Of a stretch of 10,157 nucleotides of DNA, positions 2,369 through 10,157 are shown piece after piece (the first letter of the stretch is position 1; every line of letters starts with the position of its first letter). Below the pieces are notes generated by a model, which had not been told where the DNA came from, searched no databases, and saw only the letters and a program-made list of their open reading frames with translations. A program made the position numbers and the translations under genes. The DNA is from an uncultured bacterium (lineage in GTDB: Bacteria; Bacillota; Clostridia; Lachnospirales; Lachnospiraceae): positions 1 through 10,157 of the forward strand of contig CAMNLO010000036.1 in NCBI GenBank assembly GCA_946543095.1, in the 5' to 3' direction.

Positions 2369-5300
2369 ATGGAAGGACAAAAAAAGCTCAAGCTCACAGA
2401 CTTTGACGATCCTTTATTGGATGACGCCCATAAGCCGCCGAAAAAGGGCGGGCTGCCTTCTGCCGATCAGAAGCTTGGCATGGGGAATGAGGCTAATGAT
2501 GATGCTGACTTCGATGCGTTACAGAAGGAGGTGGAAGAGAATCCGGATTTATTTAAGCCGGAGTTTACGATCAAACAGCCCAAATTCGATAAAAATGGAG
2601 ATCTTATCCTAAGTAAAGAGGAACAAAAGGAAGTCGAAGAGGAGGTAGAGAAACTCGATAAAGAAGTCGGAACTGTGGAAGAAACCGACGAAGATCGGGA
2701 AATCAAGAACCTGGAGGGAGAGCTCCCCGATGACACGGAGCAGATGAAGGAGGATGACGAAGAAGATCAGCTGATCCGGGAGAATGAGCCCGGGCAGGAG
2801 GCCGCACAGCCCAAACAGGGGACGATGGCAAGGCTCGGAGGCTTTTTTTCAGGGCTTGGCAGCAAGATCAAAGGTGCCGGCAGCGCTCTCGGCAGCAAGA
2901 TCAAGGGCCTCTTCAGCAGGAAAAAGAACAATCCCCCGGAGATACAGCTGGAGGATCTGAACGAGGAGGAAGAGGAAAAAGCAGAGGTCGAGGAGGAAGT
3001 CAAAGAGCAGGCCGAAGATCAGAATGAGGAGGATCAGGCACAGCAGGAAGAAGAGCCTCGGCAAAACCGGCCTCAGGCCGCTCCCGGGAGAACATGGTAT
3101 CAGCGGCTGGGGAATAAGATCAAAGGCGCCGGTGCCGCCATAGGCAGCAAGATCAAGGGCCTCTTCAGTAAGAAGAAGGAACCTGAAGAGATCGAAATGG
3201 ACGAGATGGAGCCCGAAGAGGAAGAGAAGGAGCAGGGCAAAGGAGAGAAGAAACCGAACGAAGAAAAGCCGGCTGAGGAAGAGCCGAAGGAAGAAGGAAA
3301 CGAAGAAGAACCGAAGGAAGAAGGAAACGAAGAAGAGGCTGTGGACGAGGCAGTCGAAGAGGCCGTCCAGCCCAAACAGGGGATGGGGGCCCGATTAGGA
3401 GGCTTCTTTGCGGGGCTCGGCAGCAAGATCAAGGGCCTTGGCAGCAAGATCAAGGGCATCTTCACAAAGAAAGAGGCAGAGCCTCCCGAGATCGAAATGG
3501 AAGAGGAGGGAGAAGAAGAGGAAGAGGAAGAGATCGCTGAGATCCCGGAATGTGAAGCCTTAAAGGGCTATCTGGATGCCATCGGTGATACCGGCGGCAA
3601 GGATTCCGCCATCATGACCATGGTGAAGAACCAGATGGAGACAGTGATCGACGCAATGAATGGGAATATGCCCAAGACCGTGGACGGGATCAACGGCGGC
3701 GCAGCGGCTATGGCAGGAATGCTCCGGATGCTCGGCAACAGCTGCAGGACCTATGTGTCCACCCATAAGAATCCGAAGACCGGAAAAGGCGAGGACAGGC
3801 TGGCGTTGGTGCGCAGCATCTGGAATCTGTCCGTGAGCATGGCATCGGGGGCTGTCCCGAAAGCAAGTCTCACCGCTATGTATCTGCAGCGGGGAGGAAA
3901 GCTGGAGGAGGACCACAAGTGGGGGGATATCTACGTCCTTTCCGCAAAGCCTGTGGAGGTTCAGATCAATCCGGAGGATATGCTGGAGGGAGAACCCCAG
4001 GCCCAGGACGGCGATGGAGATAAGCCTAAGGGCGGTGATGAGCAGAAGCCCGGGGACAATGAGAAGGCTCAGGGAGCCGGTGAGAAGCAGAAGGATGCCC
4101 TGAAGGAAAAGGAGGACGAAGAGAAGCCGAAGGAGGATGACGTTGATGCCGCGGCGAAGGAAGAAAAGCCCTCTGCCATTAAGATGAAAAATATCCGGGT
4201 CGAAGGGCCGATGTTCAAGAGCGCCTTACCGGCATTGATCAACGGCACATCTAAGAGAGTGAACGAGGATGCGGAAAAGGCGGGACCCGGGCTGCAAGGA
4301 AGGCAGAAGAAGGTTCATGAGGCTTTTATCAAATCCATTACCCTCCTGAACGAGACACTGGGAGAAACCATGCCCAAGGATCCGGCGACGTTTCAGGAAA
4401 AGCTGCCGGAGGTCAAAAGAAAGTATGCAACTGCCCTGAGGGCCAGCAATCTCATGCTCGGCGAAAATGCGGGGATCTTCAAAGAATCCACGTCCGCCGT
4501 GCAGATTCTACGCAGGAGGCTGATCGCAGAGCATATCCATCTGGAGGCTCAGAGTGCAAAATTCCTGCAGTTCCACAAGGAGAACAACACACTGGGGCAG
4601 GATCATAAGTGGTCGGAGGTGATGGAGAATGTTTTCGCGGCGGATGCCGGGGAAGGCACCGGCTATGAGGATGCGACGCAGTTCAGGGTACGAAATCCTC
4701 TCGGCATACTGAGTGATTATCTGGCATCCCAGGAAAAGGCGGTCCAGGATGCTCCGCAGAAGGGTATTGGCGGAGATGAACTGCAGCAGATGCAGGATCA
4801 GATGGCGATGGTGAAATCATTTAAACAGGCCCTTGGATGGGCGCCTGACAAGAAAAGGGATGCGATCCTTGGAGCCATCCTGCAATTGAAGGAGGATGCC
4901 TTCTCTGAAGGCAGTAAGGATGGGATTCCCGCGATCCTTGGAAAGAATTATAAGAAGCTTCCTTTCTGGACAAGGGTTGAGGCGGTGGACAAGGAAAAGC
5001 TGGTGAAAGCTCTGGAGCCGGCCCTGAAGGTCAAAGCGCAGAATGATTTTATCCGCAATACGGCGGGGATAAAGATGGGGACGAAAACCGCGTTGATGGG
5101 CGTGGCCATGAGCAGGCTTGCCGAAAGCCTCGGAGTAGGCGATATCGTCCAAAAAGAGATGGCAGGGTATTCCCAGGGCGGAGACGCAAAGAAGCTGGGC
5201 GTTTATTCCGAAGGCAGAAAGGGCACGCCTCTCGGAGAGCTGGCTGAAACAATGGAGAAAGATGGGAAACATGTCAGGTACAGTCCCGAAGCCACAAAAC

Positions 5301-5836
5301 AGCTGACCAATCTGCAGGTCCTGGATTATCTCTGCAACAATATGGGCCGGAAAATGGACAATATCCTGGTGGAGTATGACTCCGACGCGGAGGGAGCCCT
5401 TGTAAAGTCCGTGAAAGGCTATGACAACAGCATTTCCTTTGGGGAAGGAGTGGCGGACAAGGACACAAACACCTTCAGCATCCAGAATTTCGCCCGGAAG
5501 GCAGAGCCCCCCAAGGCGGATGATGAGGAGGGAAATGACGAGCAGCAGCAGGATCATTTCAGGACTCTTTTTGAAGCCATGGATCCTGAGCTGTCCAAAC
5601 GTATCATTGAAATGAAGGAATCGACTCTGGAGGTGGAGATGGCAGGGCTTCTGACCCCGGCCCAGATCGAGCTGGCCAAGAAGCGCTTAAGAAATCTGCA
5701 GAGAGTCTTCAGTGCGGATAAGAAGCTGAATGAGAAGAAATACAATCCCGATGACGATATCTGGAGACAGATCGGTGAAAAGGGGTACTCCTTCAAATCC
5801 TATCTGATCGGGATGAAACCAAAGGCACAGGCATAA
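2369..5836 (+). CDS. Large highly charged protein: acidic/cationic repeat region, helical modules, pseudokinase-like region
   Basis: Protein of 1155 residues; I recognise no named family across the full length. Residues 1-150 are very acidic and probably disordered. Residues 150-390 alternate Glu-rich tracts with three cationic repeats (155-186, 246-270, 342-368) built on GSKIKG. Residues 395-518 form a helical module with GKDS (410-413), Cys459, Tyr462, His466, Pro469, Gly474, Arg477 and ending DHKW (515-518). Residues 530-615 are a Lys/Glu/Gly/Asp linker. Residues 648-748 look like a diverged second module, again ending DHKW (745-748). Residues 749-1116 resemble a kinase-like fold: AMSRLAESLGVG (913-924), LQVLDYLC (982-989), GRKMDN (993-998), GYDNSISFG (1017-1025). 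The expected catalytic Asp is Gly993, while Asn998 and Asp1019 persist. There is no signal peptide or membrane helix. It sits between two AAA+ ATPases in one operon, so it may be their substrate, cargo or scaffold; that role is inference. Confidence 0.92.
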   Translation: MEGQKKLKLTDFDDPLLDDAHKPPKKGGLPSADQKLGMGNEANDDADFDALQKEVEENPDLFKPEFTIKQPKFDKNGDLILSKEEQKEVEEEVEKLDKEVGTVEETDEDREIKNLEGELPDDTEQMKEDDEEDQLIRENEPGQEAAQPKQGTMARLGGFFSGLGSKIKGAGSALGSKIKGLFSRKKNNPPEIQLEDLNEEEEEKAEVEEEVKEQAEDQNEEDQAQQEEEPRQNRPQAAPGRTWYQRLGNKIKGAGAAIGSKIKGLFSKKKEPEEIEMDEMEPEEEEKEQGKGEKKPNEEKPAEEEPKEEGNEEEPKEEGNEEEAVDEAVEEAVQPKQGMGARLGGFFAGLGSKIKGLGSKIKGIFTKKEAEPPEIEMEEEGEEEEEEEIAEIPECEALKGYLDAIGDTGGKDSAIMTMVKNQMETVIDAMNGNMPKTVDGINGGAAAMAGMLRMLGNSCRTYVSTHKNPKTGKGEDRLALVRSIWNLSVSMASGAVPKASLTAMYLQRGGKLEEDHKWGDIYVLSAKPVEVQINPEDMLEGEPQAQDGDGDKPKGGDEQKPGDNEKAQGAGEKQKDALKEKEDEEKPKEDDVDAAAKEEKPSAIKMKNIRVEGPMFKSALPALINGTSKRVNEDAEKAGPGLQGRQKKVHEAFIKSITLLNETLGETMPKDPATFQEKLPEVKRKYATALRASNLMLGENAGIFKESTSAVQILRRRLIAEHIHLEAQSAKFLQFHKENNTLGQDHKWSEVMENVFAADAGEGTGYEDATQFRVRNPLGILSDYLASQEKAVQDAPQKGIGGDELQQMQDQMAMVKSFKQALGWAPDKKRDAILGAILQLKEDAFSEGSKDGIPAILGKNYKKLPFWTRVEAVDKEKLVKALEPALKVKAQNDFIRNTAGIKMGTKTALMGVAMSRLAESLGVGDIVQKEMAGYSQGGDAKKLGVYSEGRKGTPLGELAETMEKDGKHVRYSPEATKQLTNLQVLDYLCNNMGRKMDNILVEYDSDAEGALVKSVKGYDNSISFGEGVADKDTNTFSIQNFARKAEPPKADDEEGNDEQQQDHFRTLFEAMDPELSKRIIEMKESTLEVEMAGLLTPAQIELAKKRLRNLQRVFSADKKLNEKKYNPDDDIWRQIGEKGYSFKSYLIGMKPKAQA
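2831..2926 (+). repeat. Cationic GSKIKG repeat, copy 1 (coding)
   Basis: Encodes residues 155-186 of the charged protein: RLGGFF, then two GSKIKG hexads separated by a short Ala/Gly/Ser/Leu spacer, then LFSRKK. The preceding QPKQG is also found before copy 3. Bases 2891-2916 are identical to 3143-3168 in copy 2 (26 bases). The peptide is Gly-rich, cationic and amphipathic in appearance, and is flanked by Glu-rich sequence. Confidence 0.9.
3104..3178 (+). repeat. Cationic GSKIKG repeat, copy 2 (coding)
   Basis: Encodes residues 246-270: RLGNKIKG, an Ala/Gly/Ile spacer, GSKIKG, then LFSKKK. The GGFF segment present in copies 1 and 3 is missing. It is followed by EEIEMDEMEPEEEE, which matches the acidic tail after copy 3 and shows that the basic segment and its acidic linker repeat as one unit. 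Confidence 0.9.
3275..3328 (+). repeat. 27-base tandem repeat coding EEEPKEEGN twice
   Basis: Units 3275-3301 and 3302-3328 differ at two third-codon positions and encode the same nine residues. This in-frame duplication in the acidic linker is a sign of recent slippage or unequal exchange that lengthens the linker without breaking the frame. Confidence 0.85.
3392..3472 (+). repeat. Cationic GSKIKG repeat, copy 3 (coding)
   Basis: Encodes residues 342-368: RLGGFFAGL, two GSKIKG hexads nearly back to back, then IFTKK. At DNA level 3419-3439 and 3440-3460 are a near-perfect 21-base tandem duplication. The QPKQG lead-in (bases 3368-3382) repeats the lead-in to copy 1 (bases 2807-2821). Confidence 0.9.
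3551..3922 (+). other. Helical module A in the charged protein
   Basis: Residues 395-518. Signature GKDS..M at 410-416, then Cys459, Tyr462, His466, Pro469, Thr471, Gly474 and Arg477, closing with DHKW at 515-518. The same signature, with one residue difference in the long spacer, occurs in the protein starting at 8118 (residues 117-185, Trp228). Function unknown; it appears to be a mostly helical domain that precedes the kinase-like region. Confidence 0.7.
4310..4612 (+). other. Probable diverged second helical module in the charged protein
   Basis: Residues 648-748. Predicted helices resemble module A in order, and the block ends with the same DHKW tetrapeptide (745-748). The Cys/Tyr/His/Pro signature is lost, so the duplication is only moderately supported. 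It leads directly into the kinase-like region. Confidence 0.45.
4613..5716 (+). other. Pseudokinase-like region of the charged protein
   Basis: Residues 749-1116. LDYLCNNMGRKMDNILV (985-1001) followed by GYDNSISFG (1017-1025) has the spacing and character of the catalytic loop (D-R-H-x-x-N) and metal-binding Asp motif of HipA / PI3-4-kinase / actin-fragmin-kinase-like folds. The general-base Asp position is Gly993 and the His position is Lys995. Asn998 and Asp1019 are kept. A clear N-lobe Lys and glycine loop could not be found. Residues 1070-1116 align without gaps to residues 437-483 of the protein starting at 8118. The fold assignment is inference from motifs. Confidence 0.5.
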
Positions 5837-5840
5837 AGGA
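5836..5840 (+). promoter_or_regulatory. Ribosome binding site for the 5847 gene
   Basis: AAGGA starts at the last base of the upstream TAA stop and lies six bases before the ATG at 5847. This fixes the start of the second ATPase and shows reinitiation-distance coupling. Confidence 0.75.
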
Positions 5841-5846
5841 TAAGGT

Positions 5847-8099
5847 ATGTATTGTTATACGGATTATTTTGACCCGGATCAGGAAGGGGTCCCTTACGAG
5901 CCGGGAGAGGAACTGGGGGATTATATCACCCTTCTGGACATGCTGCTGGAGCGCTGTCTGGAGAGAAAAGGCTTCTATAAGGAAAAGAAGCCTTTTTCCA
6001 GGGGCCTTGTGATCACGGAATCGGAAATGAAGCAGTATTTTTCCACGGCCCCGCTGCTTCGGGACGTGGAGGACGGAAGCTTCTTTGCCGAGTATTACGA
6101 TGCCATGGAGCTGATCCGTTCCCGCAGCAATGCAAAGGACAGCTTCACTCCCATGAAACAGATTTTTGAGAAGTTTTCCCTGGGGGAGTATGAGCGGATC
6201 GCGGTGCTTTTGGCCATGGCTGTCAGGATCGACCGGAAATACGAGCGGATCTACGGCTATCTCCAGGATCAGATCATGGACAGGGAACCCACCACCGGCC
6301 TTCTGGAAACTGTGTGGAAGGCCATGGAGGCGGATGGCGGATCGCTGCCGGAGGATCTGTTTAAACCGGAAGGCGATCTCTCCAGGTTCTTCTGGCTGAT
6401 GGAACAGGAGGAGACGGCACCCTTTCCCTTAAGACGGGTGTTAAAGCTTCATCCCATGATGGCGAACGCCCTTTTGGGACTCCCGGACGAAACTCCTTTC
6501 TGGAAGGGGGGTTTTTCCGAAGAGTATCCCGGCAGCGATGTGTTTGCGAAAGAGCTGGAGCCCTGCCGGAAAAAGATCTATGGCGCTGCGGCTGCGGCTG
6601 CGGATAAGGAAGGCTATTATGCCCTGGAGACCACGGATTTTTCCTTTGACCGCTATCTGGAATACCGGAACGCAGCGGAAAACGGAGAGTGTCTCTATAT
6701 CCTGGATCTGCGTACCATTCCCCCGAAGGAGCGGAAATACGAGCATTTTGCCTATGGCCTCCAGGAGCTGATGATCCGCAGGAGGCTGCATCCGGGACGG
6801 CTTCTGATCCGGATGCCGGAGGCGGAGCAGGAGGCGAGAGCCGCCTTTTTATTGTTGAAGCAGATGCACTTTATCCTGCCGGGAGAGCCTCCGGCCGCCA
6901 TCTGCGACTATGCGAAGCTGCCGGAATTCTTTATCGAGCGGGGACTGCCCGCCATCCCCCTGGAAAAGCCAGAGGTGGATGCCAGGTGCACGCTCTGGAA
7001 ATCCTTCCTGCCGGAGTCTTTACTGGAGGAGGATGTGTTCCTGGAGGACATCGCGGACTGCTATGAGATTTCCTTCGGAGAGATCGAGCGGGCGGCGGAT
7101 TACGCCATCACCCTTGCGGCTTCCTCGGCCGATGCTTCCCGGGAGAAGGGCGAAGAGATCTCTCTCCGGGGGTCCAAAACGGCAAAGGAAAAGAAGGAAG
7201 CATCCGGAGATCCAAAGGTCTCAAGAGAAATGCTGATCCAGGCGATCCTCCGCCAGAATACGGTGCGCTTCGGCGCTTTGGCATCGGAGATCCGGCCTGT
7301 GTATGACTGGGAAGACATCACCATGCAGGATTCCCAGCGCAAGGTCTTAAAAACCGCCTGCAACCGTTATAAATTAAGAAACCGCATCGGAGACAAGTGG
7401 GGCTTAAAGAAAAAGAACGCCTACGGAAACGGTGTCAGCATCCTCCTCTACGGCCCTCCCGGGACCGGCAAGACCATGGCGGCCCAGGTGGTGGCAAGAG
7501 AGGTGGGGCTTCCCCTCTACAGAGTGGACTTATCCCAGCTGTTTTCCAAGTATATCGGGGAGACGGAAAAGAACCTGGGGATGATCTTTCAGGAGGCCTC
7601 CCGGGCGAATGTGATCCTCTTCTTCGACGAAGCGGATGCGCTGTTTTCCAAAAGGACCGAGGTGAACGACTCCAACGATAAATACGCCAACGCGGAGACC
7701 GCCTACCTTCTGCAGAAGATCGAGGAATACCGCGGCATTTCCATTCTGGCCACCAATTTCTTCAATAATTTCGACCAGGCCTTTGTCAGGCGTCTCACCT
7801 ACGCAGTGCATTTGGAGAGCCCCAATGAGGCGGAGCGGCTGGAGCTCTGGACCAGCATCCTGCCGAAGGAGACTCCCATGGCGAAGAACATCGATTTCAA
7901 GTTCCTGGCGGATTCCTTCGAGCTTTCCGGCAGCAATATCAAGGCCATCCTCTACAGCGCCGCCTACATGGCAGGGGCGGAGGGGACAGAGCTTCAGCCG
8001 AAGCATATCGTGAAGGCAATGAAGTACGAATTCGAAAAACTGGGCCGTATGATCGACGGCTCCCAGTTCGGAAAATACGCAGGCTTCCTCTATCAGTAG
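5847..8099 (+). CDS. AAA+ ATPase (CDC48/Afp15-like), Walker-less D1 and active D2
   Basis: Predicted cytoplasmic hexameric ATPase of 750 residues. Residues 85-210 are a helical/winged-helix-type N-terminal region; the stretch around IDRKYERIYGYLQD (128-141) is characteristic of ATPases linked to contractile injection systems. Residues 255-425 look like a first AAA domain that has lost Walker A and B but keeps a sensor-2-like end (FGEIERAADYA, 410-420). Residues 426-475 are a charged linker. The second domain is complete: GPPGTGKT (536-543), pore-loop KYIGE with Tyr569, Walker B FFDEAD (Asp594-Glu595), sensor-1 Asn637, FVRR Arg648-Arg649, and sensor-2 GSNIK (695-699). The intact pore-loop Tyr suggests polypeptide threading. 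It is a paralogue of the ATPase at 5-2365, which is more divergent in its N-terminal half. The pair flanks the charged protein, suggesting that they act on it or on the protein that follows. Molecular class is firm; the system is not proven. Confidence 0.95.
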   Translation: MYCYTDYFDPDQEGVPYEPGEELGDYITLLDMLLERCLERKGFYKEKKPFSRGLVITESEMKQYFSTAPLLRDVEDGSFFAEYYDAMELIRSRSNAKDSFTPMKQIFEKFSLGEYERIAVLLAMAVRIDRKYERIYGYLQDQIMDREPTTGLLETVWKAMEADGGSLPEDLFKPEGDLSRFFWLMEQEETAPFPLRRVLKLHPMMANALLGLPDETPFWKGGFSEEYPGSDVFAKELEPCRKKIYGAAAAAADKEGYYALETTDFSFDRYLEYRNAAENGECLYILDLRTIPPKERKYEHFAYGLQELMIRRRLHPGRLLIRMPEAEQEARAAFLLLKQMHFILPGEPPAAICDYAKLPEFFIERGLPAIPLEKPEVDARCTLWKSFLPESLLEEDVFLEDIADCYEISFGEIERAADYAITLAASSADASREKGEEISLRGSKTAKEKKEASGDPKVSREMLIQAILRQNTVRFGALASEIRPVYDWEDITMQDSQRKVLKTACNRYKLRNRIGDKWGLKKKNAYGNGVSILLYGPPGTGKTMAAQVVAREVGLPLYRVDLSQLFSKYIGETEKNLGMIFQEASRANVILFFDEADALFSKRTEVNDSNDKYANAETAYLLQKIEEYRGISILATNFFNNFDQAFVRRLTYAVHLESPNEAERLELWTSILPKETPMAKNIDFKFLADSFELSGSNIKAILYSAAYMAGAEGTELQPKHIVKAMKYEFEKLGRMIDGSQFGKYAGFLYQ

Positions 8100-8103
8100 C
8101 ACC

Positions 8104-8110
8104 GGAAGGA
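8104..8110 (+). promoter_or_regulatory. Ribosome binding site for the 8118 gene
   Basis: GGAAGGA, seven bases before the ATG at 8118, within the 18-base gap after the ATPase stop codon. It supports the chosen start of the last, incomplete gene. Confidence 0.75.
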
Positions 8111-8117
8111 CAACACT

Positions 8118-10157
8118 ATGGACAGTTCGGATCTGTTATACGTTCAGCATCAGAAGGGCGAGACCATCCACAGGACCAAAGAGGAGCTGGCTGAAGCAAA
8201 CGCACCTCTTGTAAGCCTTGCGGACAGGGAGCAGCTTCTGGATCCCGCAAGGATTCTGGACAAAAAAGAGCAGCAGCTTCGGGATTTCCGCTCCCGGGTG
8301 GATGCTCTCCTTCCTCCGGAGCAGGAGGCGGGAGAGCAGGTGGGAAATGTGCGGCAGCTTTCCGGAGCGGACGCCTCCCCCGCTTATATTTCCATTACCA
8401 GCGGCTACAGCATTCAGACCATGAAGGAGGAGCTCTTCACCTTCTGGAAATACCAACGCTATAACGGAAAAGATTCCGAAGATATGCTGAGGCTGAAGCG
8501 GGATCTGACGGCCCTGACGAACACCTTTTCCCAGACGGTCCGGTTTGCAAACCATGAAGACATCCGCCAAAGGTGCGGGGAAATGCATGAGAAATACCAG
8601 GGGCTCATTGATTCCTGCGAGGTGTATCTTGCGGGACATCAGCATCCCTGGACCATTGCCGGAAGAGCCCGGAAATCCATGGCAAAAAAGCTTTTGCAGG
8701 CAGCAAGGGCAGAGCTTGACATGCTGGAGGATTCCGCCTTTAACTGCTTTGAGGAGGCAAAGGCCCTCCACGCGGACCTTCCAAATGTAAGGCTTTCCTG
8801 GGATGAGATCCTGCATCACGGCAAAATGCGGACCGTAAAGAGCGACAGGGACCGGATGGATGTCCGGATCGACGCCCATAGTCATACGGCGGAGTTAGTC
8901 CACAGGGATACGGGAGTCCGGGAGGTCATCACCTACGCAAGAGACGCGAAGGAGCTGGAGGAATGCCGGAAGGTGGTGGCCATGAGCAGGCTTGCCCAGA
9001 AGCTGGGCATCGGCGCTTTGGCCGGCGGCGGAGAGATGAACACCCGGATGACCACCATGATTATCAACGGCAAGACGGTGGTGGGCTGCATCACCTCCGG
9101 CGTTACCAAAAAGCCCCTTTCCGACTATCGTGAGGAGGACAGGAATACCCGGCGTCCCGGGGCGGAATTACTGCCTGATAAGAAAACCACCTACGGCCCG
9201 GAGCACTTAAAGGGCCTTCTGGCAATGCCCTTTCTGGATTATCTTTGCGGCGTGGAGCTGGGAAAGCGCAAGGAGGTTTACGGCACCGCAGCGGGCGAGC
9301 TGTTATCGGACAAAACGGAGACCGCAAGAGGCCCCGTGCTGGGGCAGATCCAGGGCCTTTCCCACAGGATCGCGGAGCATGGCTTCGGGACGGGGGCCGG
9401 GGAGTTTCCAGATCTGGGCAATGCCTGGATGAGCGAGGAGCTGGCGGAGAATATCCTCCGGTTAAATGCCGATGATGTGGACAAAATGCTGGTGGGGCTC
9501 ATCGGGAAAGAGGAACGGGCAGCCCTCGCCACCAGGCTTCAGAGCCTGAAGGATCAGATCTCGGCGAAACGGGCCGAGATCCGCCGGCAGGGAGATGCAG
9601 CGCAGGGCAGGAATAATTTTAAAACCGATGAGGACTTAAAGCGGATCCTGGAGCGCCCGGATGACCTTGCGGCCTACGCCCAGAGCCAGTCCCAGGGCCT
9701 TCACAGGCTTTTGGATGAGAATATCGCGCGCAACGGGAACGCCCTGTCAGAGCCCGCAAATCCCACCGGTCTTCTGCTTCCCCTGGAGCATCTCATCGGG
9801 GATCTCAGGGAGCCTGTGGGAAAGAATAAGGATGCGTTAAAGGGCTTCCTTACGGGCTTGACCGAAAAAGTCAATCAATTCGCGGAAAAGCGAAAGGCCG
9901 CCGTTTCCTTTGAGGAAGGCGCGGAAGCTTTGCAAAACGCCATCGGGGAGCAGCTGGAGGATATTCAGGCACTTCGGCAAAGCCTGAAGAACTATCTGAA
10001 GGGGTCCTCCGATCCTGCGGATTTTCCGAACCGCATGGCGGTGGGAAAGCTGCTTCGCGCTTCGGAATACCAGGAGCAGCGCTACAGGGCCCATGTGGGA
10101 GACATGTGCCGCTGGGTGGAGCGGCTGAAGGCGCAGAAGACCGACAGGACCTTCTCC
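8118..10157 (+). CDS. Large helical protein with degenerate kinase-like module, 3' end outside window
   Basis: Open from the ATG at 8118 to the last base: 680 codons with no stop, so the protein is longer than seen. Residues 1-100 are of unknown fold. Residues 105-228 are the helical module also found in the protein at 2369-5836: GKDS (117-120), Cys167, Tyr170, His174, Pro177, Thr179, Gly182, Arg185, Trp228. Residues 229-483 correspond to the kinase-like region: AMSRLAQKLGIG (288-299), KPLSDY, FLDYLCG (372-378), and a C-terminal block at 437-483. The catalytic loop and metal-site positions (around 379-389 and 413-424) hold no Asp-Asn pairs, so no kinase activity is expected. Residues 500-680 are mostly helical and may be coiled coil. 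No signal peptide or membrane segment is visible. Codon use matches its neighbours. It probably works with, or is handled by, the adjacent ATPase; this is inferred from gene order only. Confidence 0.9.
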   Translation, partial: MDSSDLLYVQHQKGETIHRTKEELAEANAPLVSLADREQLLDPARILDKKEQQLRDFRSRVDALLPPEQEAGEQVGNVRQLSGADASPAYISITSGYSIQTMKEELFTFWKYQRYNGKDSEDMLRLKRDLTALTNTFSQTVRFANHEDIRQRCGEMHEKYQGLIDSCEVYLAGHQHPWTIAGRARKSMAKKLLQAARAELDMLEDSAFNCFEEAKALHADLPNVRLSWDEILHHGKMRTVKSDRDRMDVRIDAHSHTAELVHRDTGVREVITYARDAKELEECRKVVAMSRLAQKLGIGALAGGGEMNTRMTTMIINGKTVVGCITSGVTKKPLSDYREEDRNTRRPGAELLPDKKTTYGPEHLKGLLAMPFLDYLCGVELGKRKEVYGTAAGELLSDKTETARGPVLGQIQGLSHRIAEHGFGTGAGEFPDLGNAWMSEELAENILRLNADDVDKMLVGLIGKEERAALATRLQSLKDQISAKRAEIRRQGDAAQGRNNFKTDEDLKRILERPDDLAAYAQSQSQGLHRLLDENIARNGNALSEPANPTGLLLPLEHLIGDLREPVGKNKDALKGFLTGLTEKVNQFAEKRKAAVSFEEGAEALQNAIGEQLEDIQALRQSLKNYLKGSSDPADFPNRMAVGKLLRASEYQEQRYRAHVGDMCRWVERLKAQKTDRTFS
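8430..8801 (+). other. Helical module in the 3' partial gene
   Basis: Residues 105-228. GKDSEDM at 117-123, then C..Y...H..P.T..G..R from Cys167 to Arg185 and Trp228. The distance from GKDS to Cys is 50 residues here and 49 in module A of the charged protein. The distance from the final Arg to Trp is 43 here and 41 there. The ordered match of nine or more spaced residues makes chance resemblance unlikely. Confidence 0.7.
8802..9566 (+). other. Degenerate kinase-like region in the 3' partial gene
   Basis: Residues 229-483. It shares AMSRLA..LG(I/V)G, a G....G...PL block, LDYLC, and the terminal helical block WMSEELAENI onward with the charged protein. At the loop after LDYLC the sequence is GVELGKRKEVYG, with neither catalytic Asp nor metal Asn, and the later GLSHRIAEHGFG lacks the metal Asp. 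If the fold is kinase-like it is a dead copy used for binding or structure. Confidence 0.5.

Follow-up and report, generated by a model that had tools for sequence, protein, structure and literature searches.

Two AAA+ ATPases alternate with large proteins carrying predicted pseudokinase domains of the PI4K-II/Fam20C type in an extracellular contractile injection system locus

The stretch of DNA analysed here, called the window, is the whole 10,157-nucleotide contig C36 of a 68%-complete draft genome (G000), and all relatives compared with it come from the same taxonomic family. Its four genes lie on the forward strand, separated by 3, 10 and 18 bases, and two genes for AAA+ ATPases (AAA1 and AAA2) alternate in them with genes for two large proteins (protein 1 and protein 2). 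The window is part of an extracellular contractile injection system (eCIS) locus and the two AAA+ proteins are eCIS ATPases, both of which are well supported by the observations set out below. The genes are as follows.

5 to 2365, + strand: AAA1, an eCIS-type AAA+ ATPase with an N domain, a degenerate D1 and an intact D2 (Pfam AAA, 2.9e-26)
2369 to 5836, + strand: protein 1, 1155 amino acids, with an acidic N-terminus, a helical module and a kinase-like domain
5847 to 8099, + strand: AAA2, a second eCIS-type AAA+ ATPase with a winged-helix N domain (Pfam AAA, 3.6e-28; winged-helix domain PF22977, 2e-14)
8118 to 10157, + strand: open reading frame of protein 2, 680 amino acids, open at the contig end

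A preliminary description of this DNA had proposed that proteins 1 and 2 share an ordered set of motifs, and all of those named are present in both proteins with the order and spacing claimed. GKDS..M lies at residues 410-416 of protein 1 and 117-123 of protein 2, C..Y...H..P.T..G..R at 459-477 and 167-185, AMSRLA..LG[VI]G at 913-924 and 288-299, and LDYLC at 985-989 and 373-377; the Trp placed about 42 residues after the second motif is W518 in protein 1 and W228 in protein 2, 41 and 43 residues past its last Arg. The gapless C-terminal block of 47 residues is also present but is weak when taken alone, with 11 of 47 residues identical and 9 of 200 shuffles equalling its score. Pairwise evidence is thin, a plain BLASTP of protein 1 against protein 2 giving E 0.001 in the C-terminal part, and the stronger evidence comes from profile comparisons by hhalign, whose E-values are those of single comparisons. 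A profile of nine relatives from other genomes (A2), which includes neither window protein, aligned with residues 874-1119 of protein 1 (E 7.6e-17) and with residues 284-487 of protein 2 (E 7.2e-9); its members were initially found using protein 1, so that the match to protein 1 is not independent of the search and the match to protein 2 is. Controls with the two AAA proteins and the reversed forms of proteins 1 and 2 gave E-values of 0.5-0.86. The protein 2 family, made up of the window copy and P0001-P0003, aligned with A2 at E 1.1e-12 and with residues 391-1155 of protein 1 at E 4.1e-8 (Prob 95; reversed control, E 0.72). The profile alignment of the two regions is thus significant and the predicted structures of the two proteins have a common fold, so that neither of the two outcomes which the preliminary description named as refuting it was seen, and the proteins are homologous over the shared core.

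Homology of the C-terminal domain is well supported, and the N-terminal helical module is shared more weakly (protein 1 against protein 2, E 2.5e-4, Prob 43; reversed control, 0.7). An iterated profile started from the protein 2 family found the helical module in 161 of 1394 pooled proteins at E ≤0.1, with 143 domains below 1e-3, and often found it recurring near both ends of relatives. Protein 1 matched this profile at E 1.4e-17, a value that arises partly by construction because iteration absorbs hits, and at 8.8e-4 in the first round. The features of the shared core are these.

3596 to 3829, + strand: helical module of protein 1, residues 410-487 (profile iteration, motifs)
8415 to 8765, + strand: helical module of protein 2, residues 100-216 (profile iteration; helices in the model)
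4973 to 5767, + strand: predicted pseudokinase domain of protein 1, PI4K-II/Fam20-like, residues 869-1133 (profile, predicted structure)
5321 to 5371, + strand: catalytic loop of protein 1, LDYLCNNMGRKMDNILV, with GRKMDN against DRHxGN of relatives; the catalytic Asp is replaced by Gly and the Asn is kept
5417 to 5443, + strand: metal-site segment of protein 1, GYDNSISFG against GIDNDxSFG of relatives; the first Asp is kept
8820 to 9587, + strand: predicted pseudokinase domain of protein 2, residues 235-490 (sequence match 284-487), with no DRH or DND motif (profile, predicted structure)

The preliminary description did not recognise the core as a named domain and offered it as a possible undescribed family. 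It is instead a (pseudo)kinase core of the PI4K-II/Fam20C type: the gathering scores of two Pfam families (PF00454 and PF06702), reached by neither window protein, are passed by an intact relative (L030). The best structural alignment of both predicted structures is to PI4K-II, in models that were built from alignments of mostly intact kinases and have a mean pLDDT (predicted local distance difference test) of 67-68. A Foldseek search with protein 2 gave no match below 0.001, the best being VPS34 at 0.029.

Of 235 domain rows, 12 (including protein 2) were dropped for not covering all three positions, and 220 of the other 223 keep the complete D..N..D set; near-copies are among the rows, and the relatives were found partly via a GIDND pattern that favours intact domains, so that true losses are under-counted. 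Only protein 1 (G, N, D) and one domain each in L026 and L035 depart from the set. Measured against the catalytic Asp, Asn and metal Asp of an active enzyme, protein 1 has G/N/D and protein 2 has no aligned motif. Neither DR[HN]..N nor D[NH][DSG] occurs in protein 2 or in P0001-P0003, which are 37-41% identical to it (P0002 and P0003 are near-copies). Since all of these proteins keep LDYLC and the flanking helices, the motif-less state is probably old and maintained and not a product of recent decay. Because protein 1 is without the catalytic Asp and protein 2 without the motifs, we predict from sequence that both window domains are pseudokinases.

Some pseudokinases transfer AMP or glutamyl groups, and proteins 1 and 2 could in principle be active enzymes of this kind, with a rewired active site directed at a target. 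The Asn and metal Asp that protein 1 keeps would suit such an enzyme, as would the persistence of the motif-less type in every one of its four known members, at around 40% identity to the window copy and with two near-copies among them, which argues against mere decay. A free-standing relative of 1324 amino acids (P0090) also carries an Ntox11 domain (1.5e-17) upstream of its kinase-like domain. Protein 2, however, is without any recognisable DRH or DND, and we judge rewired catalysis to be improbable. Separately, L026 (8576-12496) and L035 (3338-7057) each encode a single protein in which a kinase domain with intact D..N..D is joined to a second one whose D..N..D is broken, a fused kinase-pseudokinase pair.

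The eCIS context is visible at both ends of the window, where it overlaps two other contigs of the same genome.

1 to 55, + strand: exact 55-base overlap with the end of contig C142, which carries eCIS baseplate genes (blastn, 100%)
10048 to 10157, + strand: 110-nucleotide overlap (96.4%) with the start of contig C10, in which the frame continues and is followed by a GNAT-like gene

Since C142 ends in the same 55 bases with which the window begins, we infer an assembler-type junction overlap between the two. C142 carries a Baseplate_J gene (above gathering), a second gene like one of the eCIS region of L144, and an ABC gene, and its two window-proximal genes resemble those found between the ABC gene and AAA1 in L144. 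The sheath gene of G000 is on contig C30, and no physical link between C30 and the window was seen in the assembly. At the other end, C10 begins with the continuing open frame of protein 2, with similarity to the protein 2 family, and then carries a 306-amino-acid GNAT-like gene (20.5 bits, cut-off 20.7), an NMT1-like lipoprotein gene, further genes, and MFS, SpoIIE and HATPase_c_2 genes.

In another genome, G235 (table completeness 100, 20 contigs), the whole arrangement lies in the same order on one contig inside an eCIS locus. There the sheath and baseplate genes and a STAS-like gene are followed by 1072-GNAT-800-GNAT-AAA1-1677-AAA2-1340-GNAT-1452-928-GNATs-2286-GNAT-1274 (numbers being protein lengths in amino acids; the last protein has the kinase domain), and next come genes of 996, 581 and 142 amino acids that position and resemblance alone liken to the MFS, SpoIIE and HATPase genes of C10. 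Linkage to sheath, tube and baseplate genes is therefore seen both in the C142 overlap and on the single contig of G235, and the genes of the large proteins lie where cargo genes would, after the eCIS core genes and next to an ATPase of the loader type. The C-terminal stretch of the 1340-amino-acid protein in the G235 protein 2 slot (L137, 12417-16436) gives the impression of a cysteine protease, with no Pfam match.

Both ATPases have a D1 without a proper Walker A and a D2 with intact Walker A and B, which in AAA1 are GAPGTGKS at 564 and VLFFDE at 618, its D1 having only GDEGSGRK at 315. The winged-helix N domain PF22977 scores 54.2 bits in AAA2 (cut-off 27), is also found in the sheath-adjacent ATPase of L143, and scores 17.8 bits in AAA1, below the cut-off. 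Such an ATPase directly precedes the tail-sheath gene in L140 and L143, and in L139 there are two, one and three genes before the sheath. AAA1 is 78% identical over 775 amino acids to AAA1 of the G235 eCIS locus and AAA2 only 42% identical to its counterpart, as would be expected if AAA2 tracks a changing payload. Twelve of the 16 genomes with the AAA2 N-terminal region supplied 18 ATPases for a tree, in which the AAA2 clade consists of the window, G235, G405, G041 and G362 (support 100/99), and all five of these genomes are kinase-positive. The preliminary description had suggested a family tied to AAA+ ATPases, a tie that does not hold in general: among 96 loci, which include duplicates and short contigs, an AAA profile matched only the window, L028 and, partially, L059, and it matched none of 11 further sheath-negative loci. 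The AAA+ link to the kinase family is specific to eCIS loci.

Family genomes were scanned in draws of 397, equal in size and with agreeing handles: 43 had a sheath, 16 the AAA2 N-terminal region and 20 a match to the kinase profile. Sheath genes occurred in 15 of the 16 genomes with the AAA2 region (hypergeometric 4e-15), the lone exception being G389 with a weak match, and in 7 of the 20 kinase-positive genomes (hypergeometric 0.003), with genomes that are not independent in either comparison. On the window genome, at 68% completeness, the kinase profile matched protein 1 only. In the other 13 kinase-positive genomes no sheath could be detected, so the family is not confined to genomes with an eCIS. 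That number would suit an ordinary cytoplasmic kinase family whose eCIS location is incidental, as would the generic nature of the broadest common neighbours in the 96 loci, for example ABC transporters (up to 13 loci). Against incidental location stand the family members that sit within the eCIS array both in G235 and in the window, and the clustering of eCIS-genome kinases in a domain tree. Of the 44 rows in this tree, six other sheath-positive genomes contribute 17 and the full set of 13 sheath-negative kinase genomes contributes 23, with 4 rows being window-type, and the 17 eCIS-genome rows fall on one side of one branch (90/90; the shuffled mean was 13.8 changes, with 0 of 500 shuffles as low); an earlier tree of 33 rows had the same eCIS clade, with 16 rows (88/80). 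Many of the eCIS-genome kinase genes also adjoin GNAT-like genes, and we regard incidental location as highly improbable.

The GNAT-like genes, found with one profile, adjoin or lie within two genes of kinase-family genes in G041 (C7), G184 (C89, three of three), G235, G362 (C4 and C12), G405 (C55, 1393 amino acids, and C201) and the window's C10. None was near the kinase genes of G041 C33, G184 C59 and G006, the 337-amino-acid kinase of G405, or protein 1. The profile matched none of 22 loci of the 13 sheath-negative genomes; it matched weakly in L092 and L077, from genomes whose sheath status was not scanned. In L176 (615-10572), from a sheath-positive genome, three kinase-family genes lie close together, each adjoining a GNAT-like gene, and L174 (826-13990) holds four kinase-family and two GNAT-like genes in 13 kb, the sheath of that genome being on another contig.

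We lean, with modest confidence, towards reading the window as the ATPase-and-cargo part of an eCIS locus, with proteins 1 and 2 as cargo, or cargo regulators, loaded by the second ATPase. The homology, predicted fold, residue losses and eCIS locus were computed here, and the reading would add to them packaging, delivery, a pairing of AAA2 with cargo and a function for proteins 1 and 2. Both appear to be large, rapidly diverging proteins in which helical modules accompany a predicted PI4K-II/Fam20C-fold domain without catalytic residues. AAA1 would be the conserved eCIS ATPase, and AAA2 a faster-evolving second loader co-inherited with kinase-type cargo. According to the available text of PMC11495950, Pvc15 needs its N, D1 and D2 domains and hydrolyses ATP in D2 only, and effectors are loaded via an N-terminal leader. 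On that precedent, the AAA ATPase would grip the N-terminal part of the cargo and feed it into the tube; by analogy, AAA1 and AAA2 may load the large proteins, perhaps via a signal other than a leader. In the target cell, relatives with intact motifs might phosphorylate a target, and the window pseudokinase domains might work through binding, as docking sites, as scaffolds or as activators of a true kinase. FAM20A, for instance, switches on the true kinase FAM20C. This precedent and the proteins with intact and broken kinase domains in tandem suggest that dead copies may bind or activate partners.

Several observations weigh against the cargo reading. Two C142 genes between the baseplate genes and the window are on the opposite strand, so AAA1 need not share the core transcript, and no kinase domain is detectable in the G235 proteins of the same two slots (1677 and 1340 amino acids). 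In the domain tree the window-type rows lie outside the eCIS clade, on long branches and not as one group, the protein 1 domain standing alone and protein 2 with P0001 and P0002 beside the sheath-negative G268. The sheath-less kinase-positive genomes, the origin and scores of the models, the Foldseek result and the bias of the residue count, all given above, fall on the same side. In the view of the authors of PMC11495950, as given in its available text, disordered leaders are characteristic of Afp-type eCIS cargo, so the large proteins here may not be loaded by way of a leader. A Met-Asp start occurs in 15 of 28 large locus proteins against 38 of 991 other open reading frames, a comparison hand-picked after the motif had been seen and thus only a hint; protein 1 starts Met-Glu.

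The position of the window domains outside the eCIS kinase clade would also fit pseudokinases that remain in the producing cell and control how the eCIS is assembled or fired, for example by scaffolding AAA1 and AAA2 or by taking part in STAS/SpoIIE/HATPase partner switching. Pseudokinases are often regulatory, each of the two proteins comes directly after an ATPase gene, and STAS-like, SpoIIE and HATPase_c_2 genes flank such loci. The proteins in these slots, however, are large and diverse from genome to genome (1677 and 1340 amino acids in G235) while AAA1 is 78% identical, which is a cargo-like pattern, and we consider a role confined to the producing cell unlikely. MFS, SpoIIE, HATPase and STAS-like genes flank the eCIS loci in L005 (5485-10592), L158 (13700-13996) and L167, which suggests partner-switching control of the machine.

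Beyond the window and its cargo reading, we propose more tentatively, as a possibility short of probable, that eCISs of what are very probably Lachnospiraceae carry a previously undescribed, giant and diversifying cargo of the PI4K-II/Fam20 fold, with active kinases and pseudokinases, GNAT-like partners and a co-evolving, dedicated second AAA+ loader. The family resembles the PI4K type II/Fam20C-like atypical kinases (PF00454, PF06702) in predicted fold and motif order, with DRHxxN and IDNDxxFG in intact relatives; unlike them, the window copies are without catalytic residues, have helical modules around the domain and occur in a bacterial eCIS setting. FAM20A-type pseudokinases share the fold class, and the family profiles have FAM20A among their best sequence matches in the PDB; the likeness is one of fold class, with no sign seen of common descent as a pseudokinase. 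Compared by described architecture, the window ATPases are like Pvc15/Afp15 in their winged-helix-type N domain (AAA2), degenerate D1, intact D2 and adjoining eCIS genes, and differ in that two divergent ATPases here alternate with large proteins. As with PVC and AFP effectors, the genes are downstream of eCIS core genes, and many large locus proteins have polar N-termini. In contrast, the passages returned by a word search of the eCIS toxin papers PMC11297309 and PMC8213781 held no kinase-fold effector, kinases appearing only as regulators or as the target of a toxin. Contractile injection together with Lachnospiraceae is matched by one paper, PMC10266427, and Fam20 is named only in the references within the available text of a bacterial pseudokinase review, PMC12599244. 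No paper was found with "extracellular contractile injection" and "Fam20c" together, in a search outside which lay subscription journals, preprints and supplements.

Through the analysis, what had been a shared core without a name becomes a system open to testing: an injection machine of gut and rumen bacteria that probably carries a large kinase and pseudokinase family as its payload. If the proposal is true, kinases would join the known eCIS payloads, loader ATPases might be specialised by payload class, and bacteria would offer a case of one kinase fold whose active and dead copies evolve alongside each other.

One further feature lies in the first 375 residues of protein 1.

2825 to 3484, + strand: three Lys/Gly-rich GSKIKG stretches, at residues about 153-187, 246-276 and 339-372 (pattern listing)

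Very acidic linkers separate these stretches, and the Pfam model Antimicrobial_9 matched the Lys/Gly-rich region at E 0.96, which is not significant. The stretches look amphipathic and might touch membranes.
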